The translations under genes were made by a program, and so were the position numbers. From Nonomuraea antri (lineage in GTDB: Bacteria > Actinomycetota > Actinomycetes > Streptosporangiales > Streptosporangiaceae), in assembly GCF_013283785.1 (NCBI RefSeq), contig NZ_JABCPZ010000007.1:1-64000 (forward strand): 64,000 bases of DNA, in the 5' to 3' direction. Under the pieces are notes generated by a model. That model did no database searches. It worked only from the letters and a program-made list of their open reading frames with translations, and was not told the origin of the DNA. Positions 1 through 13,555 of the stretch are shown here, one piece after another; positions within the stretch are counted from its first letter, which is position 1; every line of letters begins with the position of its first letter.

Positions 1-48
1 GCACTCGACCGTGCGCAGGCCCGCGAGCCCGCCCCCGACGACGATCAT
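1..48 (-). CDS. FAD/NAD(P)-dependent oxidoreductase, N-terminus only (cut by window edge)
   Basis: Only the first 16 codons are present. They read as an N-terminal Rossmann nucleotide-binding motif ([15 protein letters not shown]), as in ferredoxin-reductase-type and related FAD oxidoreductases. The start chosen is the ATG at 48-46, which overlaps the larC stop as ATGA and has GGAG a few bases upstream. A second in-frame ATG at 57-55 also has a good ribosome site and cannot be excluded. The coupling makes it the next gene of the leftward operon. Substrate and exact family cannot be judged from this fragment. Confidence 0.7.
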   Translation of the reverse strand, partial: MIVVGGGLAGLRTVEC

Positions 49-1295
49 GTTCTCCATGGCTGCCGCCTCTCCGGTTGCTCCTGATGCCGCCCGACGTCCG
101 CCACGTCCGCCACCTCCGCGACCTGCGCGGCGGCGGCGATCGAGCGTGCCAGCGCCGCCTTGACCGGGACGCCGAGGCGGTCCGCCGCGGCGACCACGTC
201 CTCGTACTCCGGCTGGACGTTGACGATCCGCCCGCGGTGCCTGGCCACCTTGACCCGGACCTCGGCGGTGCCGACGGCCACGGTGGTGAACTCCCGTGCC
301 AGCTCGCGCTTGCGCACCCGGTACTCGCGGCTGCCGATGGTGGAGGTCTCCGCGACGATCGTCTCCCGCACGTCCGCCAGGGCCTGGGGGGAGCAGAGGA
401 CGGACAGGACGTGCGCCGGGCGCCCCTTCTTCATCAGGACGGGCGTCAGCCAGGCGTCGGCCGCCCCGGCACTCAGCAGGCGGGCCAGGACCTGGGGCCA
501 GATCCGCGGGTCGAGGTCGTCCACGTTCGCGTCGACGACCACGGCCTCCGTCCCCGGGTACGCGTCGTCGTCGAGCGGGCTGCCGAGCACGACCCGGACG
601 ACGTTCGGGACGCCGGCCAGGTCCCTCGCGCCGGCCCCCGACCCGGTCCCGAGCACGCGCAGCGGCGGCAGGCCACCCCACCCCGAGCAGAGCGTGAGCA
701 CGAGCGCCACCCCCGTAGGCGTGGCCATCTCGTAAGGGAACCCGCCGGAGCGGGCCGGCGCCCCGTGCTCGGCCAGCAGCCTGAGCACCGCGGGCGCGGG
801 GACGGGGAGCCGCCCGTGCGCGCTGGGCACGCTGCCCGAGCCCAGCGTCAGCGGCGTCGCCGTCGCCGGGCCGACGCCGAGCTCGTGCACGGCCGCGCAC
901 ACGCCCACCACGTCGGCGATCGCGTCGAGCGCGCCGACCTCGTGGAAGTGCACGTCGTCCGCGGGCACGCCGTGCGCGGCGGCCTCGGCGCGGGCCAGGC
1001 GCGAGAACACCGCGAGCGCCCGCTCCCGCACCGGCTCGGCGAGCGTGGCGCCGGCGAGCGTGGCGCGGATGTCGTGCCAGGTGCGGTGCGGCGGGCCGGG
1101 CTCGGTGTCGACGTGCACGCGGGTCGCCGCGAGGCCGCAGCGCCGGACGGTTTCGACGCGGACGCGGACGGCCCCCGGCGCGACCGCCTCGACGGCCCGC
1201 TGGACCGCCGCGAGTGACGCCCCGGCGTCGAGCAGGGCGCCCAGGATCATGTCGCCGGCCGCGCCGGCCGAGCAGTCGAACCAGGCGGCGGTCAC
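45..1295 (-). CDS. larC: LarC, nickel insertion protein for nickel-pincer nucleotide cofactor
   Basis: The 416-residue protein matches the LarC family end to end, starting with the [20 protein letters not shown] region and including [16 protein letters not shown]. Known LarC enzymes insert nickel into the bis-thiocarboxylate pyridinium nucleotide made by LarB and LarE, using CTP. The gene is one continuous frame here, whereas Lactiplantibacillus plantarum needs a ribosomal frameshift to fuse its two LarC parts. The GTG at 1295 is chosen because it overlaps the larB stop as GTGA and starts exactly at the conserved N-terminus; a longer frame to 1430 has no family similarity in its extra part. 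It is tightly coupled to larB upstream and to a flavin reductase downstream. Confidence 0.92.
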
Positions 1296-2107
1296 CGCGC
1301 GCTCACCGCGTCGGGCTCGGCCGATTCCCGGCATGCCATGCCGTGCACCATGCCGCGCGTCATCCGGGCGGCCGCGACCGCCGCGCCGAACCCGTTGTCG
1401 ATGTTGCACACCACCACGCCGGGGCCGCACGAGTTGAGCATGGTCAGCAGCGCGGCGAGGCCGCCGAACGCGGCACCGTACCCGACGCTGGTCGGCACCG
1501 CGATGACGGGGACGCCGACGAGACCGGACACCACGCTGGGCAGCGCGCCGTCCATCCCGGCGACGACGATCAGGCAGTCGGCCGCGTCGAGCCGGTCGCG
1601 AACGGCGAGCACCCGGTGGATGCCGGCCACGCCGACGTCCCGCACCAGCTCGGCCGCGCAGCCGAACTCCGCGGCGACGAAGGCCGCCTCCCGCGCCACC
1701 GGCTCGTCCGTCGTCCCGGCGGTGACCACCAGGACCGTGCCCCGGGCCGGTGGCCGCTCGCCCACGGCCGCGCAGCGCGCCCGCGCGTCGACGCGCGCGC
1801 CGGGGAAGGTCTCCGAAACCGCGTCGAGCGCGCTCTCCGACAGCCGGGTCGCCAGCGCCGAGCGCCGTCCCGGTTGCCGGTGGAGCTCCTGCAGCAGGGC
1901 GACGACCTGCGGGGTCGTCTTGCCCTCGCCGTAGACCACCTCGGGGTCGCCGGTACGCAGGGCGCGATGGGTGTCCAGCCGGGCGAACCCGAGATTGCCG
2001 GGGGCGAGCGGGCCGGACACCAGCGCGCCGAGCGCCTCCTCGGCGGTCGCGGCGCCCGCCGACACGCGGCGCAGGAGTTCCAGGACTTCGGCTCGATCCA
2101 TGCTCAC
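1292..2107 (-). CDS. larB: LarB, pyridinium-3,5-biscarboxylic acid mononucleotide synthase
   Basis: The 271-residue protein has the LarB layout: a short helical N-terminus and a C-terminal AIR-carboxylase-like (PurE-fold) domain with [45 protein letters not shown] and [16 protein letters not shown]. Known LarB carboxylates and hydrolyses nicotinic acid adenine dinucleotide, the first step to the nickel-pincer cofactor. The GTG at 2107 overlaps the larE stop as GTGA and the gene ends in GTGA overlap with larC, so larE-larB-larC are translationally coupled. An ATG two codons in (2101) is an alternative start. Confidence 0.93.
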
Positions 2108-2970
2108 CGCTCCGCGATCTCGTTGAGCGCGCCGGACCTGAACCCGCGCGGATCGACCTCCACCGCGGCGAATCCCGCGGACCGGACGGCCTCCAGCGCG
2201 GGGTCGCAGGCCGCGACCCGGGCCACGGCCGACCGGTCGACCTGGATCAGCGCCCGCTCGCCGAGGTCGCGCACACGCAGGTCGTAGGTGTCGATCCCGG
2301 CCGCGCGCAGGCTGTCCGCGAGCATCTGCTCGGCCGCCTCGACGCGGGACAGCCGGGCGCGGGTGATGGTCAAGCCGTAGGCGACGCGGCTGGACAGACA
2401 GGGCGAGGAGGGCTTGTGCCAGGTCGGCAGCCCCCAGGCCCGGCTCACCGCCCTGACCTGGTCCTTGGTCAGACCGGCGTCGGCCAGGGGGGTGACCAGC
2501 CCGCGACCGGCGGCGGCGCGGATGCCGGGGCGGAACGGGTCGTTCAGGTCGTCGGCGTTGGTTCCCGTCGCGACGTGGTCGAAGCCCCGCTCGGCCGCCA
2601 CGTCCAGCAGCCGCCCGGCCAGCTCGTCCTTGCAGAACCAGCAGCGGGACCGCGCGTTCCCGCGGTAGCCCTCGACCTCGAGCTCGCGGGTCTCGACGAA
2701 GGCGTGCGGCACGCCGATCGCGCCCGCGACCTCGCGGACGGCGCCGCGCTCGCGTTGCGACAGGCTCGCCGAGTCGCCCGTGACGGCGAGCACGCGTTCC
2801 GTGCCCAGCGCTCGCGTGGCCGCGGCCAGCAGCAGGGCGGAGTCCACGCCGCCGGAGAAGGCGACCACCAGCGATCGCAGTTCCAGCAGCCGCAGGCGCA
2901 GGGCCTCGACCCGCCGGGCCGGGAACGCGCCGGTCGGCGGGGTGGTCGGTGGTGACATCGGGGTCGGCAT
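2104..2970 (-). CDS. larE: LarE, ATP-dependent sacrificial sulfur transferase
   Basis: This is a 288-residue PP-loop ATPase with the SGGVDS pyrophosphate motif at residues 39-44, CWFCKDEL near 110-117 and KPSSPCLSSR near 186-195. In the family the enzyme adenylates the LarB product and adds sulfur to its carboxylates. In the single-cysteine type the sulfur comes from a cysteine that is turned into dehydroalanine, and Cys191 in PCLSSR is the visible equivalent. The gene follows isochorismate synthase after 4 bases and overlaps larB. The ATG at 2970 has a weak ribosome site, so expression probably relies on coupling. An internal ATG at 2958 is also possible. Confidence 0.93.
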   Translation of the reverse strand: MPTPMSPPTTPPTGAFPARRVEALRLRLLELRSLVVAFSGGVDSALLLAAATRALGTERVLAVTGDSASLSQRERGAVREVAGAIGVPHAFVETRELEVEGYRGNARSRCWFCKDELAGRLLDVAAERGFDHVATGTNADDLNDPFRPGIRAAAGRGLVTPLADAGLTKDQVRAVSRAWGLPTWHKPSSPCLSSRVAYGLTITRARLSRVEAAEQMLADSLRAAGIDTYDLRVRDLGERALIQVDRSAVARVAACDPALEAVRSAGFAAVEVDPRGFRSGALNEIAER

Positions 2971-2974
2971 GGCG

Positions 2975-4471
2975 TCACTCGATTCCCAGTGCGGACATCA
3001 TGGGGCGCAGCTTCGCGCAGGTCTCGGCGTACTCGGCCTCCGGGTCGGAGTCGGCCACCAGGCCGCAACCGGCGTACAGCGAGGCGGAGGAGCCGTCCAG
3101 GAGAGCCGAGCGGATGGTGACCGAGAACTGGCCCTGCCCGGCGGGGTCGGCCCAGCCGACCACGCCCGCGTACCAGTTGCGGTCGAACCCCTCGTGGTCG
3201 GAGAGCCAGCTCAGCGACTCCGCGCGGGGATGGCCGCCGAGGGCCGGCGTCGGGTGCAGCCGATCGACGAAGTCCAGCACGCCGACCGCCGCGCCGGCGT
3301 CGAGCCGGCCCCGCACCTTGGTGGACAGATGCTGGACGTTGGCGAGCTTGACCACGCTGGGCCGGTCCTCGACCGCGACCTCGGTGCAGGAGCGGTGGAA
3401 GGCGTCACGGAGCATCTGGACCACGATGTCGTGCTCGTGCCTGAGCTTGGGGCTGGCCGCGAGCTCGCGTTCGAGTGCCTCGTCCTCCTCGGGCGTGGCG
3501 CCGCGCGGCGCGGTGCCGGCCAGCCCCAGCGCGTGCACGGCCCGGTCCTCGACCCGCACCAGGTATTCAGGGGTGGCGCCGAGGAAGGTGTACTCCTCGT
3601 GATCGACCGCGAAGACCGTGGTGCCGGGATTGGCCGCGCGCAACCGGTGCACCGCGGCCGGGATGTCGAACGGCGCGGACGCGATGACACGCAGCTCGCG
3701 GGCCAGCACCACCTTCTCGAAGCGGCCGTCGCGGATGTCGTAGGTCGCGCGGCGCACCAGCCCCTTCCAGTCGTCGGCGCCGGGCCGCTCGACCCGGGTG
3801 TACCGGGCGGCCGGAGACGGCGCGGGCGGACGTTCCGCGCCCGCGCCGCCACGCAGGCACCGCTCGGCGAGCTGGGCGAGTGCCTCGGCCACCTGCTCGG
3901 GGTCGCTGTCGTGCAGCAGGGTCGCGTTGAGCCGCAGCTCGGCGGGGCCGGAGCGGTCCGCGGCGCCCCCGTCGGGCACGCGGCTGCGCAGTTGCAGCGC
4001 GGGCACCCACAGCAGGGCGTCGGGCAGCTGCCGCGCCTGCGTCGCCTGGTCGGGGCTGAACGCGAACCCGCCGATCGCGAGGGGCCCGCGGCCGGCGGGC
4101 AGCGCCGGGTCGGCCGCGCCGCCGCTGACCAGGTCGCGCGTCAGCGCCGCCCAGTCCTCGCGGACCCGGGCGATGCGCTGTTCGCCGCGCCCGCGCAGGT
4201 CACGTGCGGTGCCGATGGCGACGATCGAGCCCTGGTCCCACGCCGACTGCCACAGGAACGAGCGCGACGTGCTGCGCCGCGCGCGGCTCCAGACCACCAC
4301 GGGGTCGGCGAGCGTGAGCCGCTTGGCCCAGCTCATGAGCACCGGGCGGCGGGTTCTGCGGGCCCTGTCGAGCGCGTGCCTGCAGGTGGTGAGCAGGCTT
4401 TCCCCGTCGCCGCGGTCCAGGGCCGGCGCCGGCCGCTCCCGGCCGGCCGCCAGGGCAGTGCTGTTCCTCAC
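2975..4471 (-). CDS. Isochorismate synthase (MenF/EntC/DhbC family)
   Basis: The 498-residue protein has a complete chorismate-binding domain in its C-terminal half. Key residues fit isochorismate synthase: Lys253 in FEKVVLARE and Glu302 in GATPEY (spacing like the EntC general base and acid), Glu346 in KLRHEHD, HPTPALGGHPR near 406 and YAGCGLVADSDPEAEYAET near 466-483. There is no glutamine-amidotransferase domain, so it is not an ADIC or anthranilate synthase. It should convert chorismate to isochorismate. No isochorismatase or isochorismate-pyruvate lyase is visible nearby, so the next step is unknown. Two bases separate it from the upstream gene and four from larE. The start is GTG at 4471 behind GAAGGAG. 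Confidence 0.88.
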   Translation of the reverse strand: MRNSTALAAGRERPAPALDRGDGESLLTTCRHALDRARRTRRPVLMSWAKRLTLADPVVVWSRARRSTSRSFLWQSAWDQGSIVAIGTARDLRGRGEQRIARVREDWAALTRDLVSGGAADPALPAGRGPLAIGGFAFSPDQATQARQLPDALLWVPALQLRSRVPDGGAADRSGPAELRLNATLLHDSDPEQVAEALAQLAERCLRGGAGAERPPAPSPAARYTRVERPGADDWKGLVRRATYDIRDGRFEKVVLARELRVIASAPFDIPAAVHRLRAANPGTTVFAVDHEEYTFLGATPEYLVRVEDRAVHALGLAGTAPRGATPEEDEALERELAASPKLRHEHDIVVQMLRDAFHRSCTEVAVEDRPSVVKLANVQHLSTKVRGRLDAGAAVGVLDFVDRLHPTPALGGHPRAESLSWLSDHEGFDRNWYAGVVGWADPAGQGQFSVTIRSALLDGSSASLYAGCGLVADSDPEAEYAETCAKLRPMMSALGIE

Positions 4472-4473
4472 GT

Positions 4474-5571
4474 TCAGTACACTCCTTCGACCGCTACCGG
4501 GCCGCCGTCTCTGGTCAGGGGCTGGACGTCGGCCACCCCGTCCTGCGGGTACGCGGCCGTGGGGGCGACACGCAGCAGCGAGTCGCGCTCCAGGGTCCAG
4601 GGCAGGAAGAGGTCACGGGAGACCAGGGAGATGCGCGCCTGGCCGCGTTCGCCGTAGGCCACCTCCGCCGTCGGGTTCTCCGGGTCCACCACCCTGACCC
4701 GGCTGAACGGGTGGAAGGGCACGAAGACGCAGCCGGCATCGGCCGGGTCCCCGTTCCTGGGCCGCTGGGGGGCGATGCCCATCATGGTGTTGCCGTACAG
4801 GCCGGCCACGCGGGCCTCGGGGAAGACCTCCTCCTCCAGGAACCTGAGGGTCTCGGGGCTCACGCTGGTGCCCGCCCAGACGATGCCGCGCACCTTGTCC
4901 CGCACCAGGTCCAGCAGCCGCTCGTCGGCGGCCAGGGCCTCCAGGACCGGCGGGGTCGCGAACAGCACGGAGACCGGCTGCGTGGACAGCACGTCCGCGG
5001 CCTGGGCCAGGATGTGCCGCACGTAGCGGGCCGCCTCGTCGGAGTGCCCCTGCTTCAGGCTGCTCTTGACCCAGCGCGGGTCGAGGTCGATGTAGTGGCA
5101 GAACGTACGGCGCAACTGGGCCAGCAGCCCGATCGAGCGGCCGACGATGTGCGGCCCCGTCGGGCCGAGGTGCAGCCAGTGACCGCCGCCCTCCCCGGGG
5201 ATGCCGTGTTCGGCGAGCACCTCGCTCACCCACAGCACCCCGTTGCGGCGCGAGCGTGACTCCACGATGCGCTTGGGGCTGCCCGTGGTGCCGCCGCTGT
5301 CGAACACCTGGAAGTCCCAGTGGCCCCCGGTGAGCCCGGCCGGGACGAGGTCGTCCACGGAGACGTCTCGCCACTCGCCGCTGACCTCGGGGAACAGGTC
5401 CAGGTCCGCCCAGGTCGCGACGTCGGTCAGTGGATTGAAGTCCAGCTCGGCGGCCCGCTTCAACCAGTAGGGAGAGCCGGTCTCCGGCGAGAAGTGCCAG
5501 CGCATCGCGGCGCGGATGAACTCCTCGGGGGAGAGGTCGGCGGTGAACGGCTCGGCCGTGGTCTCCAACAT
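4474..5571 (-). CDS. LuxE/EhpF-like acid-adenylating enzyme (PaaK superfamily)
   Basis: The 365-residue protein belongs to the short phenylacetate-CoA-ligase-like adenylating enzymes. The ATP-binding loop is FDSGGTTGSPK at residues 90-100. The N-terminal MRWHFSPETGSPYWL region resembles actinobacterial proteins called phenazine antibiotic biosynthesis protein (EhpF type). EhpF and LuxE activate a carboxylic acid so that an aldehyde-dehydrogenase-fold partner can reduce it; such a partner is encoded at 8794-10137. The ATG at 5571 has GGAGAAGG ten bases upstream; a longer open frame further upstream lies inside DAHP synthase and is not coding. By context I infer a shikimate-derived aryl acid substrate. 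Confidence 0.8.
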   Translation of the reverse strand: MLETTAEPFTADLSPEEFIRAAMRWHFSPETGSPYWLKRAAELDFNPLTDVATWADLDLFPEVSGEWRDVSVDDLVPAGLTGGHWDFQVFDSGGTTGSPKRIVESRSRRNGVLWVSEVLAEHGIPGEGGGHWLHLGPTGPHIVGRSIGLLAQLRRTFCHYIDLDPRWVKSSLKQGHSDEAARYVRHILAQAADVLSTQPVSVLFATPPVLEALAADERLLDLVRDKVRGIVWAGTSVSPETLRFLEEEVFPEARVAGLYGNTMMGIAPQRPRNGDPADAGCVFVPFHPFSRVRVVDPENPTAEVAYGERGQARISLVSRDLFLPWTLERDSLLRVAPTAAYPQDGVADVQPLTRDGGPVAVEGVY

Positions 5572-5597
5572 GATCGTCCTTCTCCGGTAGCGGCTGG

Positions 5598-6653
5598 TCA
5601 GACCTGGGCAAGAAAGTGCGAACGGGACGGCGACAGGATGCGTCCCACCGCCTCCACGACGGGCTTGAGCCGGCTCATCAGCTCGGCGAACTGCTCGCCC
5701 GTGATCGCCTGCGCGCCGTCGCACAGGGCGTTGCGCGCGTCGGTGTGCACGTCGATGATCAGGCCGTCGGCTCCGGCCGAGGCCGCGGCCAGGGACATCG
5801 GCGCGACGAGGTGCGGACGCCCGGTGCTGTGGCTGGGATCGACGATCACCGGCAGGTGGGTGAGCCGCTTCGCCTCGGCCACCGCGCTGAGGTCCAGGGT
5901 GAACCTGGTGCTGCGGTCGTAGCTGCGGATGCCGCGCTCGCACAGCACCACGTCGCCGTTGCCGGTGTGCAGCAGGTATTCGGCCGCGAGCAGCCATTCC
6001 TCGATCGTGGCCGACATGCCCCGCTTGAGCAGGACCGGCCGGTTCGACTCCCCGGCGGCGCGCAGGAGCTCGAAGTTCTGCATGTTGCGCGTGCCGATCT
6101 GGAGCATGTCGCTCTCCTCGGCGACGCACTCCACGTCGGCCGGCGTGACGACCTCGGTGACCACGGGCAGGCCGGTGCGCTTGCGCTGCTCGGCGAGGAG
6201 CGCCAGGCCCGCCAGCCCCATGCCCTGAAAGCTGTAGGGGGAGGTGCGGGGTTTGAACGCGCCGCCGCGCAGCATCACCGCGCCACCCGCGACGACGGCG
6301 TCCGTCACGGAATCCATCTGCTCCTTGCCCTCGACCGCGCACGGCCCCGCGATCACGGTGAACTCCGGGCCGCCGATCACCGCCTCGCCGGCCGGTCCCA
6401 CCCGCACCCGGGTGTCCTCCGCCAGGAATTCCCGGCTGGTGAGCCGCATCGCCCCCGTGACCACGACCACGCGGTCGACCCCGGGGGAGTTCTCCACGAC
6501 GGACGCCAGCTCCGGAGAGCCGTTCTCCTGGGTGACGAACATGGAAACGCCCAGCAGCGTGCCGGACATCGGTGTTAAACCCTGGTCCCGGAGAAGTCCG
6601 ACGATGAAATCCAGCTGTTCGCGGGTGGCCCGCGAACGCATAACCACGATCAT
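5598..6653 (-). CDS. aroF: 3-deoxy-7-phosphoheptulonate (DAHP) synthase, type I-beta
   Basis: The 351-residue protein has a short N-terminal ferredoxin-like regulatory domain (about 1-70) followed by the KDO8P/DAHP synthase barrel: AGPCAVEGKEQM, LRGGAFKPRTSPYSFQG, VVTEV, IGTRNMQN, LLKRGMSATIEEWLLAAEY, VIVDPSHSTGR and GLIIDVH. It joins phosphoenolpyruvate and erythrose 4-phosphate, the entry to the shikimate pathway. As first gene of the leftward operon with isochorismate synthase it probably boosts chorismate supply for the local product. Leu26 is a TTA codon (6578-6576), rare in GC-rich actinomycetes. The ATG at 6653 has GGAAGG upstream. Confidence 0.92.
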   Translation of the reverse strand: MIVVMRSRATREQLDFIVGLLRDQGLTPMSGTLLGVSMFVTQENGSPELASVVENSPGVDRVVVVTGAMRLTSREFLAEDTRVRVGPAGEAVIGGPEFTVIAGPCAVEGKEQMDSVTDAVVAGGAVMLRGGAFKPRTSPYSFQGMGLAGLALLAEQRKRTGLPVVTEVVTPADVECVAEESDMLQIGTRNMQNFELLRAAGESNRPVLLKRGMSATIEEWLLAAEYLLHTGNGDVVLCERGIRSYDRSTRFTLDLSAVAEAKRLTHLPVIVDPSHSTGRPHLVAPMSLAAASAGADGLIIDVHTDARNALCDGAQAITGEQFAELMSRLKPVVEAVGRILSPSRSHFLAQV

Positions 6654-6831
6654 GGGAACCTTCCAGTGGGTTGACTTTCGGGCCGGCGGTGCGGCGTCAT
6701 CGATCCGCGACGGGACCGGAGGTAATCAACTATCCACATCGGCACTTTTGATAGGAAGCCGGTGGCAGTTTCCTGCCAGGACCCCCTTGAGAGGTTGCCG
6801 CGGGCTCGGCCCAATGTGCTCTCATCTCTAC

Positions 6832-6847
6832 TGGCGAACGTTTGCCA
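6832..6847. promoter_or_regulatory. Candidate operator palindrome in the divergent promoter region
   Basis: The 16-base sequence TGGCGAACGTTTGCCA is a palindrome with a single mismatched pair, centred on ACGT. It lies 20 bases before the start of the cyclase gene, in the 213-base gap between the two divergent biosynthetic operons. This is a typical place for a repressor of the TetR or LacI type. The binding protein is not identified; the only regulator of the locus in view is the LuxR-type gene at 14722-15498. Confidence 0.5.
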
Positions 6848-6866
6848 AACGAGCGAGAGGGTGACC

Positions 6867-7538
6867 GTGGAGATCATCGACATTAGTCAGGGCTGGTACG
6901 AGGGAATGCCCTCTTATGCCGCGCCCTGGTATCCGAAATTCGGCGTACGCAGAGCCATGACGCCGCAGACCGATCCGTCGGGAGTCGGCCGCACGTTCTC
7001 CGACCTTCAGATATTTCCGCACAACGGCACGCACGTGGAGTCGGGATATCACTTCTTTGCCGACCGCGAGCGGATCGACGAGGTTCCGCTGGAGGTCTTC
7101 GTGGGCCGCGCCTGCGTGGCGGACCTGTCGCACAAGGGCGATCTCGACCCGGTCACCGGTGAGGATCTGGAGAAGGCGCTGCGCGAGGTGTGGCGGCCGG
7201 GCGACCGGCTGCTGGTGCGCACCGACCACCCGAATCGTCACCTGGGCCGCGACGACTACTGGGACAAGCCGCCGTACCTCACGGTCTCCGCGGCGGACTG
7301 GATGGTGGACAACGGCTGCGTCCTGGTCGGCATGGACTGCATCACCGAGCAGCCCGACGACCGCAGCGGGCAGGTGCACCGGCGCCTGCTGGCCGCCGGG
7401 ATCCCGATCCTGGAGAACATCCAGCACCTCGACCGGATCTCCAATCCGGTCGTCCAGCTGATGGCCTTGCCGATCAAGGTCTCCGACGTGGAGGCGGCGC
7501 CGGCCCGGGCCATCGTGCTGGACGGCTGGCCTTTCTGA
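6867..7538 (+). CDS. Cyclase-family (kynurenine formamidase-like) metal-dependent hydrolase
   Basis: The 223-residue protein belongs to the cyclase / kynurenine formamidase fold (PF04199). The metal motif reads HNGTHVESGYHF with His52, His56, Glu58 and His62, where the usual form is HxGTHxDxPxHF. Aspartate has become glutamate and the proline is lost, so substrate or metal use may differ from KynB. The GTG at 6867 is preferred because GAGAGG lies six bases upstream; GTG at 6861 would touch the ribosome site. It is the first gene of the rightward operon. Family members hydrolyse formamides, lactones or imides; the true substrate is unknown. Confidence 0.75.
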   Translation: MEIIDISQGWYEGMPSYAAPWYPKFGVRRAMTPQTDPSGVGRTFSDLQIFPHNGTHVESGYHFFADRERIDEVPLEVFVGRACVADLSHKGDLDPVTGEDLEKALREVWRPGDRLLVRTDHPNRHLGRDDYWDKPPYLTVSAADWMVDNGCVLVGMDCITEQPDDRSGQVHRRLLAAGIPILENIQHLDRISNPVVQLMALPIKVSDVEAAPARAIVLDGWPF

Positions 7539-7576
7539 ACCTGCCCTGAATTCGCAATCCCCCGTTAGGGAGTTCC

Positions 7577-8794
7577 GTGAGCGGCGAACTGACTCCAGTT
7601 GCTCTCGTCCGAGCCGAAGGACGGACGGCCGCCGAGATCGCCGATGCGACCGAAGCGGCGCTGGATCTTCTCGGCGATCCTTTGCGGCACATCTGCAAAG
7701 GCGACCGCGTGGTCATCAAACCCAATATGTTCCAGCGGAAACCGGGATTCGTCACGAGCCCCGAACTGCTGCTCGTATTGGCCAGGCAGGCCGCGGCGCG
7801 CGGGGCCGAGGTGTATATCGCGGAGCGGACGCAGGTCATCAAGGAAATACTCGACCTGAGCCCGATCCACCGTTATGCCAAGGTCGTCAGTTTCGACGAT
7901 CGGCCCTTGCGCGTCGTCCAGGTGCCGGGCGCCACCTCGCTGAGAGTGCCCATCGCCATCCCGGACATCGTGCTGGATTGCGAGTTCTTCATCGGCGCCC
8001 CGCAACTGCGCACCCATTCCAGCGTGGTTCTCACCAATGCCATGAAGAACCTGGTCGGGCTGCTGCCCGGATTCACCACGCGGGTCGTCCACATGGCCGG
8101 CGTGGAGGAGGCGCTCGTCGACCTCAACCTGCTGCGCCCGCAGCACCTGGTCGTCTGCGACGCGCTGACCGTCATCGAGGGGAACTACCCCATGGCGGGG
8201 AGCCTGCGCGAGGTCGGCCTGATCGCCGCGTCGCGCAACGCGGTCGCCATGGACGCCACGATGGCCGGGGTGGCCGGCGTCGGCTGGTGGGAGCTCGCCT
8301 ATCTCCGCGACGCGTGTGAACGCGGCATGGGACCGGTCGATCCCGCCGACATCGAGGTGCGGGGACTCGCGGTCGAGGACGCCGCGTTCGCCATCGAGCG
8401 CGCCCCGGTGGACCTGACCCCGCCCAGGGACGGCATCCACGTGCACGCCGACACCGCGTGCGCGGACTGCCGGCGCTGGCTGGCGGCCGCCATGCACCGG
8501 CTGCGGGACGAGCTGCTGAGCTTCCCCGGCGAGCTGACGATCGTGTCCGGGCCCATGGAGCGTCTTCCCGCGCTGCGCGGCGCGGTGGTGCTGGTGGGCA
8601 ACGCCCTGTACGAACACCGCGAGGCCGGCGTCTACCTGGAGGGCTGCCCGCCGCGGGCCATCCAGATCGCGGGCCTGCGCCACGCGATGGGCCACCCCGT
8701 CACCGAGCAGGAGTCCACCCAGTTCCGCGTCCCGCGACAGGACGCCGAACGCGCCGGCGGCCACGCTTGGCCGGCCCCCGAGGAGTTGGTCTGA
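7577..8794 (+). CDS. DUF362 protein, candidate LarA-like nickel-pincer enzyme
   Basis: The 405-residue protein is a DUF362 family member: VVIKPNMF near 46-53, PQLRTHSSVVLTNAMKN near 142-158 and GLLPG at 161-165. It lacks the ferredoxin cysteine clusters found in some relatives. His147, Lys157 and His172 are spaced 10 and 15 residues apart; in LarA lactate racemase the catalytic His174, the cofactor-bound Lys184 and the nickel ligand His200 are spaced 10 and 16. With larE-larB-larC in the divergent operon and no LarA in view, I infer that this could be the nickel-pincer client enzyme, perhaps a racemase or other hydride-transfer enzyme. This is a hypothesis from spacing and context. The GTG start has TAGGGAG upstream and the stop overlaps the next gene as TGATG. 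Confidence 0.75.
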   Translation: MSGELTPVALVRAEGRTAAEIADATEAALDLLGDPLRHICKGDRVVIKPNMFQRKPGFVTSPELLLVLARQAAARGAEVYIAERTQVIKEILDLSPIHRYAKVVSFDDRPLRVVQVPGATSLRVPIAIPDIVLDCEFFIGAPQLRTHSSVVLTNAMKNLVGLLPGFTTRVVHMAGVEEALVDLNLLRPQHLVVCDALTVIEGNYPMAGSLREVGLIAASRNAVAMDATMAGVAGVGWWELAYLRDACERGMGPVDPADIEVRGLAVEDAAFAIERAPVDLTPPRDGIHVHADTACADCRRWLAAAMHRLRDELLSFPGELTIVSGPMERLPALRGAVVLVGNALYEHREAGVYLEGCPPRAIQIAGLRHAMGHPVTEQESTQFRVPRQDAERAGGHAWPAPEELV

Positions 8795-10137
8795 TGTCGA
8801 TGTCCATCCCCGTGCTGCGCGGCGGCTCGGAACGCGCCTCGCAGGACACGCGCCCGCTGTCCGGCGTGGACGGCGAGCCGCTGGCGGTGGTGCACGAGGC
8901 TCCCGCCCTGATGGTCAGGATGACCGCGAAGTCGATGCGCCAGGCGCCGCACCTGCCGCTGGACGAGCGCCTGGCGGTGCTCGCCCGGGCGGGCGCCCTG
9001 TTCGCCGAGGCCACCCTGGGCGGGCAGACCCCGGAGGAGTACTGCGAGATCCAGGCCCTGGCCTCCGGCGTGCCCATCAGCGTGGCCAGGCAGACGCTGC
9101 ACCGGGTGAGCGGCGACTGCGCGCTGCTCGGCGAGGTCGTCGGGCGGCAGTCCCCGGCCGGCGCCGGCCGTACGGCCCGATGGGAGCGCCGCGGCTCGAC
9201 GCTGGGGGTCGTCGCGCCGAGCAACCATCCCGCCACCCACGGCGCCTGGCTGCAGGCCGTCGCGCTGGGATACCGGGTGGCGGTCCGGCCCGGCGCGCGC
9301 GATCCGTTCACCCCGCTGCGCCTGGCCAGGGCGCTGCTGGCGGCCGGGCTCGACCCCGGCTGGATCAGCCTGCTGCCCGGGTCGCACTCCGCCGTCGACA
9401 CGCTCGTCCGGTCGGCGGACCTGGCGCTGGTCTACGGCGGCGAGTCCACGGTCGCCAGGCTGCGCGGCGACGATCGGGTGCTGGTGCGCGGCCCGGGACG
9501 CAGCAAGGTCCTCGTGGACCGCCCGCTCGACGGCGCGACGCTGGACCACCTCGTCACGGAGATCGCCGCGGACGGCGGGGTGCGCTGCACCAACGCCACC
9601 GCGGTCTTCACCTCCGGCGATCATCTGGCGCTCGCCGAGGCGCTGGCGGAGCGGCTGGCCGCGCTGCCGGCCCACCCGGTCACCGACGGCAGGGCCGTCC
9701 TGCCCGCCCGTCCGCTGCCTGAGGCGCAAGCGCTTCGGGCGTCTCTCGACCGGGCCGCCCAGGGCGCGGCCGACCTGGCGCTGCGCCACTACGACGACGG
9801 CCCGCTGGCCCCCGTGGGCGGGGCGGCCGTGGCGCTGCGTCCCGCGGTGCTGGCCGTCGACCGGGCCGACCATCCGGGGCTGGGCGTGGAACTGCCGTTC
9901 CCCTGCGTGTGGGTGGCGCCCTGGCGGCGGCCGGAAGGCGTGCGGCCGCTGGACGGCTCGCTGGCGCTGACCCTGCTGACCGATGACACCGCGCTCGTCG
10001 CCGAGGCGCTGCGCACGCCCGGCATCCGCACCGTGCTGCATGGCCCGGTCGCCGGGTGGTGGCGGGACCCGTATCTGCCGCACGACGGCCATCTCGCCCA
10101 GTTCCTCATGGAGGCGCGCGGCTTCGCCGTGGCGTGA
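8794..10137 (+). CDS. Aldehyde dehydrogenase-fold acyl reductase (LuxC/EhpG-like)
   Basis: The 447-residue protein has the aldehyde dehydrogenase fold: PSNHPATHG near 142-150, an NAD(P)-binding region around 160-240 and the likely nucleophile Cys265 in GGVRCTNAT. Overall it looks more like acyl-CoA reductases of the LuxC type than classic aldehyde dehydrogenases. With the adenylating enzyme at 4474-5571 it forms a pair that could reduce a carboxylic acid to an aldehyde, as proposed for EhpF/EhpG in griseoluteic acid formation and shown for LuxE/LuxC. The ATG at 8794 overlaps the DUF362 stop (TGATG). The substrate is unknown. Confidence 0.72.
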   Translation: MSMSIPVLRGGSERASQDTRPLSGVDGEPLAVVHEAPALMVRMTAKSMRQAPHLPLDERLAVLARAGALFAEATLGGQTPEEYCEIQALASGVPISVARQTLHRVSGDCALLGEVVGRQSPAGAGRTARWERRGSTLGVVAPSNHPATHGAWLQAVALGYRVAVRPGARDPFTPLRLARALLAAGLDPGWISLLPGSHSAVDTLVRSADLALVYGGESTVARLRGDDRVLVRGPGRSKVLVDRPLDGATLDHLVTEIAADGGVRCTNATAVFTSGDHLALAEALAERLAALPAHPVTDGRAVLPARPLPEAQALRASLDRAAQGAADLALRHYDDGPLAPVGGAAVALRPAVLAVDRADHPGLGVELPFPCVWVAPWRRPEGVRPLDGSLALTLLTDDTALVAEALRTPGIRTVLHGPVAGWWRDPYLPHDGHLAQFLMEARGFAVA

Positions 10138-10180
10138 AGCGCCCGCCTTCGACACGTCGCCGGCTCTGAAGTCTCAACTG

Positions 10181-10225
10181 TTTCCACGGTTCTCAAGGTC
10201 TCCAAGGTCTCCAAGGTTTCCAAGG
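10181..10225 (+). repeat. Five tandem 9-base units at a ribosome binding site
   Basis: Between the reductase gene and the next start lie five head-to-tail 9-mers: TTTCCACGG, TTCTCAAGG, TCTCCAAGG, TCTCCAAGG and TTTCCAAGG. The last unit runs straight into TGAAGACATG of the following gene. Four units end in AAGG, which resembles a Shine-Dalgarno core, so the number of units could change translation of the gene at 10233. Confidence 0.85.
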
Positions 10226-10232
10226 TGAAGAC

Positions 10233-11321
10233 ATGTCTGCTGCTTGCCCCGACATCCCGATCGTCGTCCTGCCAGAGAACAACCTGGTGCGCGCGTCCAC
10301 CCGCCCGTCGCCGCGGGTCGCGGCCGCCCTGTCGGCGGCCGTGGACGCGCTGACGCGGCTGCACACCGAGCTGCTGAGCCCCGACGGGGCCGGCGGCGTG
10401 GTCAAGGCCGCCATGGACGCCGCCGTCGACCGGGCCGACCACCTGGCCGTCGTGGCCGCCGTCGCCCCGATGGACACCGCGCCGCTGCGGCCGATCGTGC
10501 CCAACCACGAGTACTTCGGCGTCAGGACGGCGCACGTCGACGACGCCTACCTCGCCGCCGAGATGACCACGGTCATCGCGCGAGCGCTGACCGACCTGCG
10601 TAACGCGCGGCTGGACCTGAACGACCAGGCCGCCGAGGTCCGCGCGATGGCCGCGCTGCTCAGGGGGCTGGACCCGGGCTCCGGCCCGGCGGCGCCCGAG
10701 CCGGCCGCCCCGGCCCACCCGGCGCCCTACCGGCCGGGCGGCGACGAACTGACCCGCTGGGTCATCACCCATCACCTGTACTTCCTGCTCAACCTCGCCG
10801 CGGCGGACGCCGTCTCCCAGGCGATCGCCGGGCTGCGTGACGGTGACCGCGACGCGGCGCTCGCCGCCCTCCGCACGGCGACCGTGCACGTTCGCGGCTT
10901 CACCGCGGCGATGATGCACTCCGGGGACATGTCGGCCCCCTGCTATGACGCCAAGGTCCGGCCGACCATGCAGCCGCCCGCCGTGCCGGTGGCGCTCACC
11001 GGCCGCACGCAGCCCGAGCACCGCTCGTTCAGGAAGGCGATGCGCGGGCTCCTGCCGGCCTCCCCGGAGTCCTTCGGCAAGCTGTTCGCCGCCGACCCCG
11101 AGCTGGCCGTCGCCAGGGACGCGCTGCTCGAAGCCGACCTGCAGGACATCGAACGGCACATCATCGTGACCGCCGCCCTGGTCGGCGACGACTTCTCCAT
11201 CATCCAGGGCGAGGCGTCCGCGGAGAGCGCGATCGCCGTGCTGCGCCGCATGCGGCACATCAGGGCCGAGGCCTACCAGGACCTGATGCGCTACGGCGAC
11301 GTCGTCAGCCTCACCGCCTGA
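10233..11321 (+). CDS. Unrecognised, probably all-helical protein of the biosynthetic operon
   Basis: I do not recognise this 362-residue protein. It is soluble, with no signal peptide or membrane segment, and is rich in Ala, Leu and Arg with long predicted helices. A low-complexity Ala/Pro linker near residues 151-166 splits it into two parts. The C-terminal part holds several His, Asp and Glu residues (THHLYF near 179, MMHSGDMSAPCYDAK near 230-244, DLQDIERHI near 304), which could bind a metal or heme, but no family motif is clear. It lies between the reductase and the flavoreductase in the same direction. The ATG at 10233 follows AAGGTGAAGAC, the end of a tandem repeat. Confidence 0.7.
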   Translation: MSAACPDIPIVVLPENNLVRASTRPSPRVAAALSAAVDALTRLHTELLSPDGAGGVVKAAMDAAVDRADHLAVVAAVAPMDTAPLRPIVPNHEYFGVRTAHVDDAYLAAEMTTVIARALTDLRNARLDLNDQAAEVRAMAALLRGLDPGSGPAAPEPAAPAHPAPYRPGGDELTRWVITHHLYFLLNLAAADAVSQAIAGLRDGDRDAALAALRTATVHVRGFTAAMMHSGDMSAPCYDAKVRPTMQPPAVPVALTGRTQPEHRSFRKAMRGLLPASPESFGKLFAADPELAVARDALLEADLQDIERHIIVTAALVGDDFSIIQGEASAESAIAVLRRMRHIRAEAYQDLMRYGDVVSLTA

Positions 11322-11351
11322 ACCCCGTACGAAGGAAGGAATGCCGAAGAG

Positions 11352-12224
11352 ATGACGACGACGCGGACGACCCGCACCAGCCGGGTGCACACCGGCCGGG
11401 TCCGCCACGCGGAATGGATCACGCCGGGGATGAGACGCGTGGTCTTCGGCGGGCCGGGGCTGCGCGACTTCCCGCAAGGCGAGCTGACGGATCGCTACGT
11501 CAAGCTGCTGTTCCCGGCCCCGGGCGTCACGTATCCGGAGCCGTTCGACCTCGCGGCCGTCCGCCGGGACCTGCCGCGCGAGCAGTGGCCGCGCATGCGC
11601 ACGTACACGGTCAGGCGGTGGGACGAAACGGCTCGCGAGCTGACCCTGGACTTCGTCCATCACGGGGACCGCGGCCTGGCGGGCCCATGGGCGGCGGCGG
11701 CAGTCCCCGGCGACCAGTTGTCATTCCTCGGGCCCGGCGGTGGTTACGCGCCCGATCCGCTGGCCGACTGGCATCTCATGGCCGGGGACGAGAGCGCGCT
11801 CCCGGCGATCGCCGCCTCGCTCGAAGCGCTCCCGGAGAGCGCCACGGCACTGGTCCTCGTCGAGGTGTCCGGCCCGCGGGAGGAACAGCGCCTGGAGAGC
11901 AGGGCTCGGGTGCGCGTCACGTGGGCGCACCGCGACGCGGACGAGCCGGCCGGCGGGCTCGCCGCCCTGCTCGCCGGTGCCGAGTTCCCGCCTGGCCGGG
12001 TCCACGCGTTCGTCCACGGCGAGGCGAACCTGGTCAAGGAGCTGCGCCGGCACCTGCTGGTCGAGCGGAACCTGAGCCGCGACCGGCTGTCGATCTCCGG
12101 CTACTGGCGCAGGGGACTCAACGAGGACGGCTGGCAGGCCTCCAAGAGCGAGTGGAACCAGCGGACAGAACACGAGCACGAGACGTTGTCGACCCGTTCG
12201 ACCTCAGCAGGAGTGGAACTATGA
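11352..12224 (+). CDS. Siderophore-interacting-protein family FAD reductase
   Basis: The 290-residue protein matches the siderophore-interacting protein family (ViuB/YqjH type): an FAD-binding beta-barrel with RMRTYTVRRWD near 78-88 and VHHGDRGLAGPWA near 101-113, then an NAD(P)-binding domain with LMAGDESALPAIAASLEAL and SISGYWRRGLNEDGW at the C-terminus. Family members reduce ferric siderophores to release iron in the cytoplasm. Its place in the operon suggests either that the product binds metal or that this flavin reductase serves a biosynthetic step. The start has GAAGGAAGGA 11 bases upstream. The stop overlaps the next ATG as ATGA. Confidence 0.88.
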   Translation: MTTTRTTRTSRVHTGRVRHAEWITPGMRRVVFGGPGLRDFPQGELTDRYVKLLFPAPGVTYPEPFDLAAVRRDLPREQWPRMRTYTVRRWDETARELTLDFVHHGDRGLAGPWAAAAVPGDQLSFLGPGGGYAPDPLADWHLMAGDESALPAIAASLEALPESATALVLVEVSGPREEQRLESRARVRVTWAHRDADEPAGGLAALLAGAEFPPGRVHAFVHGEANLVKELRRHLLVERNLSRDRLSISGYWRRGLNEDGWQASKSEWNQRTEHEHETLSTRSTSAGVEL

Positions 12225-13465
12225 ACACCCGCCCGACCATCGCCATCGTGGACGCCTATTCGAGCGCCCGTTTCCTGAAGGCGCTGTTCGCCGAACGCGG
12301 CTACGACTGCGTCCACGTGCAGAGCTCACCCGTGCTCAACGCGCTCGACCGGCACTTCGACCCGGGCGAGTTCGTCGCCAACATCGTCCACCGGGGCGAC
12401 GCGGACGAGACCGCGGCGGCGGTCGCCGAGTTCGCGCCGCGTCAGGTGCTGCCCGGCGTGGAGAGCGGCGTGGAGGTCGCCGACATCCTGAGCTCCAGGC
12501 TCGGCCTGCTGACCAACGGGACCGAGCTGAGCGCGGCCCGCCGCGACAAGTACCTCATGATGGAGACGGTCAAGCAGGCCGGCGTGCCGGGCACCCACCA
12601 GGTCCTGGCCACCGACTTCGACACGCTGCTCGACTGGTACGAGGGCGTCGAGGGGCGGGTGGTGCTCAAGCCGCTGCGCAGCACCGGCAGCGACGGCGTG
12701 CGCTTCTGCGACGACCTCGACGAGCTGCGCGCCGGCTTCGAGAGCCTGCTCGGCACCAAGAGCGCGCTCGACCAGCGCAACAACGCCGTGCTCGCGCAGG
12801 AGTACCTGTTCGGCCGCGAATACATCGTCGACACGGTGAGCCTGAACGGCCGTCACCACGTGACCGACGTCTGGAAGATGCACCACCTCAGCGCCAACGG
12901 CGTCCGCGACCTGACGGCCGGCGCCGAGCTGATGCCGCGCCGGGGAGCCGAGCAGGACGCCCTGGTCGCCTACACCTGCCAGGTGCTGGACGCGCTGGGG
13001 GTGCGCCACGGCGCCGCGCACACCGAGCTGAAGCTCACGCCCGACGGCCCGCGGCTGATCGAGACGGCGGCCCGCATCTGCGGCGCCGACGTGCACGTGC
13101 CGGTCCGCGCGGCCACCGGGGAGAGCCAGCTCGAATGGACCGTGGACGCCTACCTCGACCCCGAGCGGTTCCTGGCGCGGTGTGACGACGACTATCGGCT
13201 GATCAAGCACGCGGGTATCGTGAACATGGTCTCGCCCGTCGCCGGGAAGCTCGTCGCGTATCCCCGACTGGACGAGATCTACGCGCTCGAGAGCTACTGC
13301 GGAATCAAGTTCCAGTACTCGGCAGGCGAGGAGGTCCATCGGTCGGTGGACGACTGGACCTTCCCCCTGCGGATCTACCTCGCCCACGAGATCGAGGGCG
13401 TCGTCGCCCGCGACCTCATCACCGCTCGCCATCTCGACGGCGCCGGGTTCTACGAGGTCGAGTAA
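12221..13465 (+). CDS. ATP-grasp carboxylate-amine ligase
   Basis: The 414-residue protein has an N-terminal Rossmann-like domain (IAIVDAYSSARFLKALF) and a central ATP-grasp domain with RRDKYLMMETVKQAGVPGT, VVLKPLRSTGSDGV, QEYLFGREYIVDTV, the metal ligands in AHTELKLTPDGPRLIETAAR and a conserved C-terminal extension. Such enzymes activate a carboxylate as acyl phosphate and couple it to an amine, often an amino acid in small peptide-like natural products. It could attach an amino acid to the aryl product of the locus. The ATG at 12221 overlaps the previous stop, with AGCAGGAG upstream. The partner substrates cannot be predicted. Confidence 0.85.
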   Translation: MNTRPTIAIVDAYSSARFLKALFAERGYDCVHVQSSPVLNALDRHFDPGEFVANIVHRGDADETAAAVAEFAPRQVLPGVESGVEVADILSSRLGLLTNGTELSAARRDKYLMMETVKQAGVPGTHQVLATDFDTLLDWYEGVEGRVVLKPLRSTGSDGVRFCDDLDELRAGFESLLGTKSALDQRNNAVLAQEYLFGREYIVDTVSLNGRHHVTDVWKMHHLSANGVRDLTAGAELMPRRGAEQDALVAYTCQVLDALGVRHGAAHTELKLTPDGPRLIETAARICGADVHVPVRAATGESQLEWTVDAYLDPERFLARCDDDYRLIKHAGIVNMVSPVAGKLVAYPRLDEIYALESYCGIKFQYSAGEEVHRSVDDWTFPLRIYLAHEIEGVVARDLITARHLDGAGFYEVE

Positions 13466-13555
13466 CCGCTTGTCATTTCCCTGTTCTCCCAGAGATTGAA
13501 GCGATCACATGTCTCATCCCTGCCCTCATCCCCCCAGCGCCGCTGAGGTGGGTTG

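Follow-up and report, generated by a model that had tools for sequence, protein, structure and literature searches.

Enzymes dependent on the nickel-pincer nucleotide (NPN) are represented by the LarA superfamily (DUF2088, Lar_N PF09861), which includes lactate racemase and other NPN-dependent 2-hydroxyacid racemases and epimerases. The genes for NPN also occur without LarA. According to one survey, about 15% of the analysed genomes contain larB, larE and larC while a larA homologue is missing; many cyanobacteria belong to this group, and their NPN client is called 'yet-to-be-identified' there (PMC11796402). The same situation has been described for Haloferax volcanii (PMC8305020). DUF362 and the DUF2088 of LarA are assigned to a common Pfam clan, CL0471 (PMC11770544).

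The locus described here lies at the beginning of the window, the whole 64,000-nucleotide stretch of DNA from the soil bacterium Nonomuraea antri that was analysed. Like the genomes mentioned above it carries NPN genes without LarA, but here the lar genes form one cluster with a gene encoding a DUF362 protein. This protein resembles the LarA superfamily in its predicted fold and in its association with larB, larC and larE; candidate His, Lys and His residues follow each other in the order and at nearly the spacing seen in LarA, in an alignment that is not significant. In contrast to LarA, it gives no significant profile match, its first catalytic histidine is not conserved and no Lar_N (PF09861) match is present, the only match besides PF04015 being a sub-threshold one to DUF6998. 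The cysteines 295, 298 and 357, which are invariant in eight aligned DUF362 proteins, and the biosynthetic cluster context also distinguish it from LarA. Within the DUF362 family, the protein matches PF04015 and has the common H-x9-K-N motif, but lacks the ferredoxin-type cysteine motifs of the clostridial DUF362 proteins L088 and L089. The nearest NCBIfam model, NF052623 (Npun_F2552), is matched with 63.7 bits against a cut-off of 500 bits. Two further proteins, encoded at 4474-5571 and 12221-13465, are similar to the tailoring enzymes EhpF, which modifies phenazines, and L-amino acid ligases. Unlike phenazine systems, the cluster contains NPN genes, and no phenazine core genes were found among the cluster proteins scanned.

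Gene content of the cluster

The left half of the cluster is encoded on the minus strand:

1-57, minus strand: FAD-dependent oxidoreductase, first 19 codons only (from translation; cut by the contig end)
45-1295, minus strand: larC, nickel insertion, a single fused ORF with GTG start (PF01969, 430.8 bits)
1292-2107, minus strand: larB (NF033503, 264 bits, cut-off 175)
2104-2970, minus strand: larE (TIGR00268, 275 bits, cut-off 150)
2975-4471, minus strand: isochorismate synthase (TIGR00543, 295.2 bits, cut-off 224.75)
4474-5571, minus strand: EhpF-like acid-adenylating (AMP-binding) enzyme (EhpF, PDB 3l2k/3hgu, E 5e-58)
5598-6653, minus strand: DAHP synthase (TIGR01361, 356.4 bits, cut-off 267.75)

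The initial annotation had described these genes as one operon, which the analysis confirms; the curated models and the EhpF match support the gene identities. DAHP synthase, the EhpF-like enzyme, isochorismate synthase, LarE, LarB and LarC are encoded co-directionally in this order. The first three gaps measure 26, 2 and 4 bases, and the last two junctions, LarE/LarB and LarB/LarC, are 4-base GTGA start/stop overlaps, as had been reported. Both LarC domains exceed their curated cut-offs (TIGR00299, 190.7 against 90; NF052512, 141.3 against 50). The product of larE contains the motifs SGGxDS and CxxC...C (residues 39, 110, 190); the latter would assign larE 2104-2970 to the [4Fe-4S] type by the criterion given in PMC9283937. 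With LarB, LarE and LarC all above cut-off, the predicted set for NPN biosynthesis is complete by curated models. The isochorismate-synthase equivalog models listed were not matched above their cut-offs by the 2975-4471 protein.

The flavin reductase assigned earlier to the end of this operon could be recovered in part. The start of a co-directional FAD-dependent oxidoreductase gene is present, but it comprises only 19 codons because the contig begins at base 1 of the window. A full-length gene at the equivalent place of the related clusters L062, from Kitasatospora phosalacinea, and L080 encodes a FAD protein with Pyr_redox_2 and Reductase_C domains; a pattern search found no oxidoreductase gene at this place in L061, L063, L084 and L087.

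Absent from the initial annotation was the adjoining divergent half (6762-14770), which carries the key DUF362 gene. Its genes and the regulator gene that follows are:

6762-7538, plus strand: 'cyclase'/kynurenine-formamidase-like metal hydrolase (PF04199, E 1.9e-26; 4co9, E 9e-19)
7577-8794, plus strand: DUF362 protein, the proposed NPN-dependent enzyme (PF04015, E 5.8e-31, 108.5 bits, cut-off 24)
8797-10137, plus strand: aldehyde-dehydrogenase (ALDH)-superfamily reductase (PF00171, E 2.6e-11)
10233-11321, plus strand: relative of heme-dependent tyrosine hydroxylases (6vdp, 3-methyl-L-tyrosine peroxygenase, E 1.5e-14; 7kqr, E 1.7e-5)
11352-12224, plus strand: FAD reductase of the siderophore-interacting-protein type (PF04954, PF08021)
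12221-13465, plus strand: ATP-grasp L-amino acid ligase, ATG start at 12221 (30vh, L-amino acid ligase, E 4e-66; comparison run on 12248-13462)
13553-14770, plus strand: MFS exporter (PF07690, E 1.2e-56)
14722-15498, minus strand: LuxR-type regulator (GerE, 22.6 bits, below the cut-off of 23.5; E 8.4e-5)

Homologues of the cyclase align only from residue 23-36 onward, and the true start of the gene is perhaps the GTG at 6861. The ALDH-superfamily reductase, which we take to resemble LuxC, is proposed to be the partner of the EhpF-like enzyme. The 10233-11321 protein has no Pfam match. Neither the siderophore-interacting-type FAD reductase nor the MFS exporter has a match in the eight related stretches described below. 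The LuxR-type regulator probably marks the edge of the cluster. Beyond about 15.5 kb, no shikimate-pathway families were found among the ten ORFs scanned at 16-34 kb, five of which have Pfam matches. The cluster product is probably a small molecule derived from chorismate. A structure is not proposed, because a literature search yielded no paper describing a cluster of such content.

Related clusters and the distribution of LarA

The search for the same gene order that the initial annotation had recommended revealed relatives of the cluster in seven other genomes and in one plasmid record, giving nine clusters with the window. DAHP synthase and the adjacent cyclase-DUF362 pair are present in all nine, and isochorismate synthase in eight. 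The genes larE, larB and larC likewise lie inside eight of the nine (the window, L060 via L080, L061, L062, L063, L064 via L083, L065 and L087), so that none of the clusters with LarB and LarE lacks LarC. The Tengunoibacter cluster keeps the cluster core, and in the 19.5 kb examined it contains neither lar genes nor isochorismate synthase. Two related clusters contain an NRPS. In the LarC tree, seven of the eight cluster LarCs make up one clade (100/99). The eighth, from the rearranged cluster of Kitasatospora MAA4, is placed outside this clade, and the drawn tree therefore needs two changes. Judged by its placement, this LarC appears to be of another lineage; the tree would also be compatible with a single origin of the cluster LarCs.

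The initial annotation had considered a larA gene just outside the window. None was found in the assembly, with the reservation that base 1 is the end of the contig. The 580 contigs of the genome contain no LarA detectable by the Lar_N profile or a full-length profile, one LarC and one DUF362, the latter two both in the cluster. When the same searches were applied to eight whole genomes (this one and seven related ones), six gave no LarA, and in these six the sole LarC match is on the DUF362 contig. LarA was found in two of the related genomes. In one of them, Actinoplanes KI2 (G299), a piece of LarC is situated about 9 kb from LarA on contig C177, and the DUF362 cluster on C122 carries a further LarC.

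DUF362 and LarC tend to occur in the same genomes. With phylogeny ignored, LarC was detected in all eight DUF362-containing genomes of Actinomycetes versus 67 of 288 others, and in 90 of 127 DUF362-containing genomes of Chloroflexota versus 51 of 134 others. The other 37 of these 127, for which genome completeness is not stated, have no LarC match. Seven of the eight DUF362-containing Actinomycetes genomes have a Lar_N match. A universal role of DUF362 as NPN client was rejected for Actinomycetes, since 20 of the 21 LarC-positive, Lar_N-negative genomes have no DUF362. The control genome of B. ihuae has DUF362 and no LarC; C. glutamicum and M. jannaschii have LarC and neither a Lar_N nor a DUF362 match.

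Sequence and predicted fold of the DUF362 protein

The AF2 model of the DUF362 protein has a pLDDT of 78.9 and a pTM of 0.77. When it was compared with the PDB by Foldseek, all 16 matches at E<=1e-3 were LarA (best 4.8e-7), and the next match followed at 2.1e-3. The TM-scores of the LarA matches are only 0.27-0.37, with rmsd values of 8.6-14.4. Because the model is predicted and the TM-scores lie in this range, the LarA fold is regarded as weakly supported. The model is poor over residues 162-175, including H172, and a model of the N-domain only reached a pLDDT of 53. A PDB search with the sequence of the protein gave no matches at E<=10. The profile-profile comparison with LarA gave no usable match with eight sequences; with eleven sequences the alignment was collinear and not significant (p 0.086).

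The candidate residues of the protein are H147, K157 and H172, in the arrangement H147-x9-K157-x14-H172; the alignment with LarA is not significant. Fourteen LarA ORFs, picked by pattern, show the near-equal arrangement H-x9-K-x15-H, in which the lysine is reported to hold NPN and the last histidine to bind nickel (PMC12611868). H147 is invariant in all eight aligned DUF362 proteins. Position 86, aligned with the first catalytic histidine of LarA, is occupied by Q, H, A or R, which makes a classical two-base racemase unlikely. Of 26 readable DUF362 frames from Chloroflexota, 24 contain the His/Lys pair, including all eight from genomes without a LarC match, and 13 of those 24 have the third histidine at +15 (five of the eight from LarC-negative genomes). 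Since the pair is spread across DUF362 in this way, it is not diagnostic of NPN, and the His/Lys/His triad was rejected as proof of NPN binding.

Proposed role of NPN and alternative explanations

We consider it likely that the cluster supplies its own NPN to a DUF362 enzyme whose substrate is an acid derived from chorismate or isochorismate. LarB, LarE and LarC would make the cofactor inside the cluster, and it would be loaded into the DUF362 protein (7577-8794), a putative distant relative with the LarA fold. We infer that the loaded protein would catalyze a hydride transfer, that is a redox-neutral isomerisation or epimerisation, on the carboxylic acid, jointly with the cyclase-type hydrolase, its neighbour in all nine clusters. 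Here the acid would be converted into an aldehyde by the EhpF-like ligase and the ALDH-type reductase, with the ATP-grasp amino-acid ligase also taking part; in two relatives it would be passed to the NRPS. A biosynthetic NPN-using enzyme had been suggested in the initial annotation. Indirectly, the suggestion is supported by the failure to find LarA in the genome, by the LarA-like predicted fold of a DUF362 protein in the cluster and by the recurrence of the arrangement in eight of nine clusters. Observations that speak against the proposal are the occurrence of the His/Lys pair in DUF362 proteins of LarC-negative genomes, the 37 Chloroflexota genomes with DUF362 and no LarC match, and the 20 LarC-positive, Lar_N-negative Actinomycetes genomes in which DUF362 gave no match. 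We know of no other NPN enzyme from natural-product biosynthesis, and this protein would, if the proposal is true, be the first.

It is rather unlikely that DUF362 is NPN-independent and that LarB, LarE and LarC feed another cluster protein, for instance the adenylating enzyme or the hydrolase of the cyclase type. In favour of this, the cyclase recurs in the clusters as constantly as DUF362, and LarC-negative genomes carry DUF362 with the same His/Lys pair. However, the model of DUF362, the only cluster protein folded, matches LarA, and we know of no NPN enzymes in the cyclase, adenylating, ALDH-type, oxygenase or ligase families.

A product built by the chemistry of LarB and LarE, the other suggestion made earlier, found no positive support. 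These enzymes, with LarC, would have to act on the product, giving a pyridinium thiocarboxylate or a nickel complex from nicotinate adenine dinucleotide, which we regard as very improbable. The lar genes are indeed co-directional with the shikimate genes, and of the five junctions, four are overlaps or gaps of no more than 4 bases. Yet the chorismate-side genes would be left unexplained, the nickel inserter LarC accompanies LarB and LarE in every case, and the Tengunoibacter core has no lar genes in the stretch examined. Cofactor supply accounts better for a complete predicted cofactor pathway next to a protein with a LarA-like predicted fold. It is hardly credible that the assembly or the profiles missed an unlinked LarA which larEBC serve, and that these genes hitch-hike in the operon: the fragmented assembly, the contig end at base 1 and the LarA of two relatives would allow it, but two profile searches found no LarA in six of eight genomes, larE, larB and larC recur in eight of nine clusters, and one rearranged cluster has a LarC that is apparently of another lineage.

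Taking on-site NPN supply to the DUF362 enzyme as the preferred reading, we lean towards the wider view that a branch of DUF362 would be a second class of NPN enzymes outside the LarA family, recruited to secondary metabolism for the hydride-transfer isomerisation of a chorismate-derived ring. In some organisms without larA, for example cyanobacteria and haloarchaea, the missing client of NPN may likewise be a DUF362 protein. The cluster offers a concrete candidate for an NPN client, which in eight actinobacterial clusters is accompanied by genes for making the cofactor. This candidate makes the question of the client in larA-less bacteria testable; a published system allows NPN proteins to be co-expressed in E. 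coli (PMC11796402). Two of the 14 control genomes, those of S. elongatus and H. volcanii, are positive for LarC and DUF362 and negative for Lar_N.

Organization of the cluster

The larE, larB and larC genes, which encode the predicted makers of the nickel-pincer nucleotide (NPN), are located in a minus-strand operon in the order DAHP synthase, AMP-binding enzyme, isochorismate synthase, LarE, LarB and LarC. The genes are separated by gaps of 26, 2 and 4 bases, followed by two 4-base GTGA overlaps, and larC starts with a GTG at position 1295. The operon described in the initial annotation was reproduced in its gene order, gaps and start/stop overlaps. LarE, LarB and both LarC domains exceed the curated NCBIfam cut-offs, and the AMP-binding enzyme is a relative of EhpF. 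LarE carries a CxxC...C motif, which PMC9283937 assigns to the [4Fe-4S]-type LarE. The gene following larC had been annotated as a flavin reductase. Only its first 19 codons are present, and the rest lies beyond the contig end at base 1. The same place in the Kitasatospora phosalacinea cluster (L062) and in another relative's cluster (L080) is occupied by an FAD oxidoreductase that combines a Pyr_redox_2 and a Reductase_C domain, and therefore the label is roughly right. A pattern search of stretches in four further clusters (L061, L063, L084, L087) revealed no such oxidoreductase after larC.

A divergent unit, which the initial annotation had left out, begins approximately 110–210 bases away from where the DAHP synthase gene starts; the range reflects the choice of start codon. 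The unit encodes:

6762-7538, divergent unit, first gene: kynurenine-formamidase-like "cyclase"
7577-8794, divergent unit: DUF362 protein
divergent unit: aldehyde-dehydrogenase-type reductase
divergent unit: relative of heme-dependent tyrosine hydroxylases
divergent unit: siderophore-interacting-type FAD reductase
divergent unit: ATP-grasp L-amino acid ligase
divergent unit: MFS exporter

Elsewhere in the window, at 27909-31866, an apparently unrelated RNA-repair pair is encoded, consisting of Hen1 (Hen1_L and methyltransferase) and Pnkp (kinase-phosphatase-ligase).

Recurrence of the gene set and the search for LarA

A scan of genome contigs with the DUF362 protein led to seven loci, in Streptomyces sp. 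DvalAA-43, S. spiralis, Kitasatospora phosalacinea, Actinoplanes sp. KI2, Kitasatospora sp. MAA4, Actinacidiphila rubida and Tengunoibacter tsumagoiensis, the last of which is a member of the Chloroflexota. A plasmid search returned three records, including one close DUF362 relative (69%) in Streptomyces sp. NBC_01450, whose cluster is carried on a 2.35-Mb linear replicon. The window, the seven genomic loci and the NBC_01450 cluster were compared by tblastn with 14 window proteins. The cyclase–DUF362 pair and the DAHP synthase were matched in all nine clusters, the isochorismate synthase in eight, and larE, larB and larC together likewise in eight. The EhpF-like and aldehyde-dehydrogenase-type genes were matched in seven clusters, the ATP-grasp ligase in six and the heme oxygenase relative in five. 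The Tengunoibacter ligase shares just 25% identity, yet it contains ATP-grasp and LAL_C2 domains. The LuxR-type regulator found matches of about 30% in two relatives' clusters only (L063 and L080), and for the siderophore-interacting-type reductase and the MFS exporter the relatives' clusters gave no tblastn match. In A. rubida and NBC_01450 the matches are limited to the DAHP synthase, isochorismate synthase, larE, larB, larC, cyclase and DUF362 genes, and this minimal set adjoins an NRPS with two condensation-adenylation-carrier sets and a thioesterase. These seven genes therefore look like a building-block cassette with variable tailoring. In the 19.5 kb examined around the Tengunoibacter cluster neither isochorismate synthase nor lar genes were detected; an SDR and a zinc alcohol dehydrogenase are present there.

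The initial annotation had placed the lar genes in a biosynthetic context. In the 11.67 Mb, 580-contig assembly of N. antri, no LarA was found either by the Lar_N profile (0 matches) or by a full-length profile made from nine LarA proteins, and the single LarC and the single DUF362 match both lie within this cluster. LarC and DUF362 are present in all seven relatives' genomes, DUF362 as a single match in six and as two in Tengunoibacter. In five of them (G296, G297, G298, G300, G301) both LarA searches were negative, and the sole LarC match sits on the DUF362 contig. LarA is present in Actinoplanes and Tengunoibacter. Actinoplanes carries a LarC in the DUF362 cluster on contig C122 and further LarC pieces, one about 9 kb from LarA on contig C177. 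The two LarC matches of Tengunoibacter are on contig C1, its DUF362 cluster on C2.

A LarC tree was built from eight cluster LarCs, the best 29 loci by score of the Actinomycetes LarC search (75 genomes) and one Tengunoibacter sequence; the short rows L076, L078 and L079 were left out. Seven of the eight cluster LarCs form one clade (100/99). That of Kitasatospora sp. MAA4, whose cluster has a different gene order, falls outside on a long branch. The cluster label requires two changes on the tree (0 of 500 shuffles were as good), and therefore it is suggested that the lar genes may have been recruited twice into DUF362 clusters. The well-supported branches alone remain compatible with one origin.

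The DUF362 protein as a candidate NPN enzyme

The DUF362 protein is probably the NPN client of the cluster. An AF2 model from eight cluster sequences (pLDDT 78.9, pTM 0.77) gave 16 Foldseek matches in the PDB at E<=0.001, all of them LarA (best 4.8e-7); the next match was a methyltransferase (2.1e-3). The TM-scores to LarA are low (0.27-0.37) and the rmsd high (8.6-14.4), which could result from a differing orientation of the two domains. Modelling of the N-domain alone failed. The findings suggest an NPN client that would differ from LarA in sequence and have the same fold. PMC11770544 places DUF362 and DUF2088 in one Pfam clan and records the use of DUF362 as an outgroup in LarA-field work.

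All eight cluster DUF362 proteins in the alignment share H147, K157 and H172, with spacings of 10 and 15. The corresponding LarA spacings are 10 and 16 (14 LarA ORFs picked by pattern among the loci), and the Lys and the last His are residues 184 and 200 in L. plantarum numbering. A comparison of 11 DUF362 with 9 LarA sequences paired these residues without reaching significance (p 0.086). The position aligned with the other catalytic His of LarA is Q, H, A or R. According to PMC12611868, the Lys of LarA holds NPN, its last His binds nickel, and some homologues lack one catalytic His. PMC7583248 suggests that some homologues without active-site residues may catalyse another hydride-mediated reaction. 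Among the best 30 Chloroflexota DUF362 loci by score, the frame was readable in 26. H-x9-K-N occurs in 24 of these, including all eight from genomes without a LarC match, and therefore the His/Lys pair is a wide DUF362 trait and was rejected as a mark of NPN. A His at K+15 follows in 13 of the 24 frames (5/8 from the LarC-negative genomes). Four Cys residues are also invariant in the eight cluster proteins (C135, the CxxC at 295/298 and the GCPP at 357); they could be ligands of an Fe-S cluster or zinc.

We propose that LarB, LarE and LarC produce NPN, which would be taken up by the DUF362 protein. The loaded enzyme would then shift a hydride within a hydroxy acid that derives from chorismate or isochorismate; hydride transfer on an isochorismate-derived substrate is put forward tentatively. 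The cyclase-type hydrolase would assist and might take off the enolpyruvyl group. The scan of 14 cluster proteins turned up neither an isochorismatase nor an NAD-dependent dihydroxybenzoate dehydrogenase, a result that is consistent with a replacement of their chemistry and falls short of proof. Searches of mostly open-access PMC full text revealed no report of NPN genes in a natural-product cluster and none of DUF362 as an NPN enzyme, and no statement on NPN binding by DUF362 was found in the portions available there.

Co-occurrence of DUF362, LarC and Lar_N

Among 296 Actinomycetes genomes, DUF362 was found in 8, LarC in 75 and Lar_N in 63. LarC is present in all eight DUF362-positive genomes versus 67 of the 288 others (Fisher p 1.3e-5, with shared ancestry ignored and incomplete genomes included); seven of the eight also have a Lar_N match. 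DUF362 occurs in one of the 21 LarC-positive, Lar_N-negative genomes, that of N. antri itself. The other 20 (e.g. G010, G034, G051, G219) have neither Lar_N nor DUF362 matches and may contain a further NPN client. The 261 Chloroflexota genomes comprise 90 with DUF362 and LarC, 37 with DUF362 alone, 51 with LarC alone and 83 with neither (p 8e-8, again ignoring shared ancestry and including incomplete genomes). Among the 14 controls, LarC and DUF362 occur together without a Lar_N match in S. elongatus and H. volcanii, DUF362 occurs without LarC in B. ihuae, and in C. glutamicum and M. jannaschii LarC is the only one of the three that was matched. Haloferax volcanii may have an enzyme with a nickel-pincer cofactor, according to PMC8305020. 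A single ORF in each of two loci, L008 (genome G064) and L009 (genome G079), is weakly matched by DUF362 and Lar_N alike, and these ORFs are possible intermediates between the two families. The ORF in L009 is located about 2 kb from LarC.
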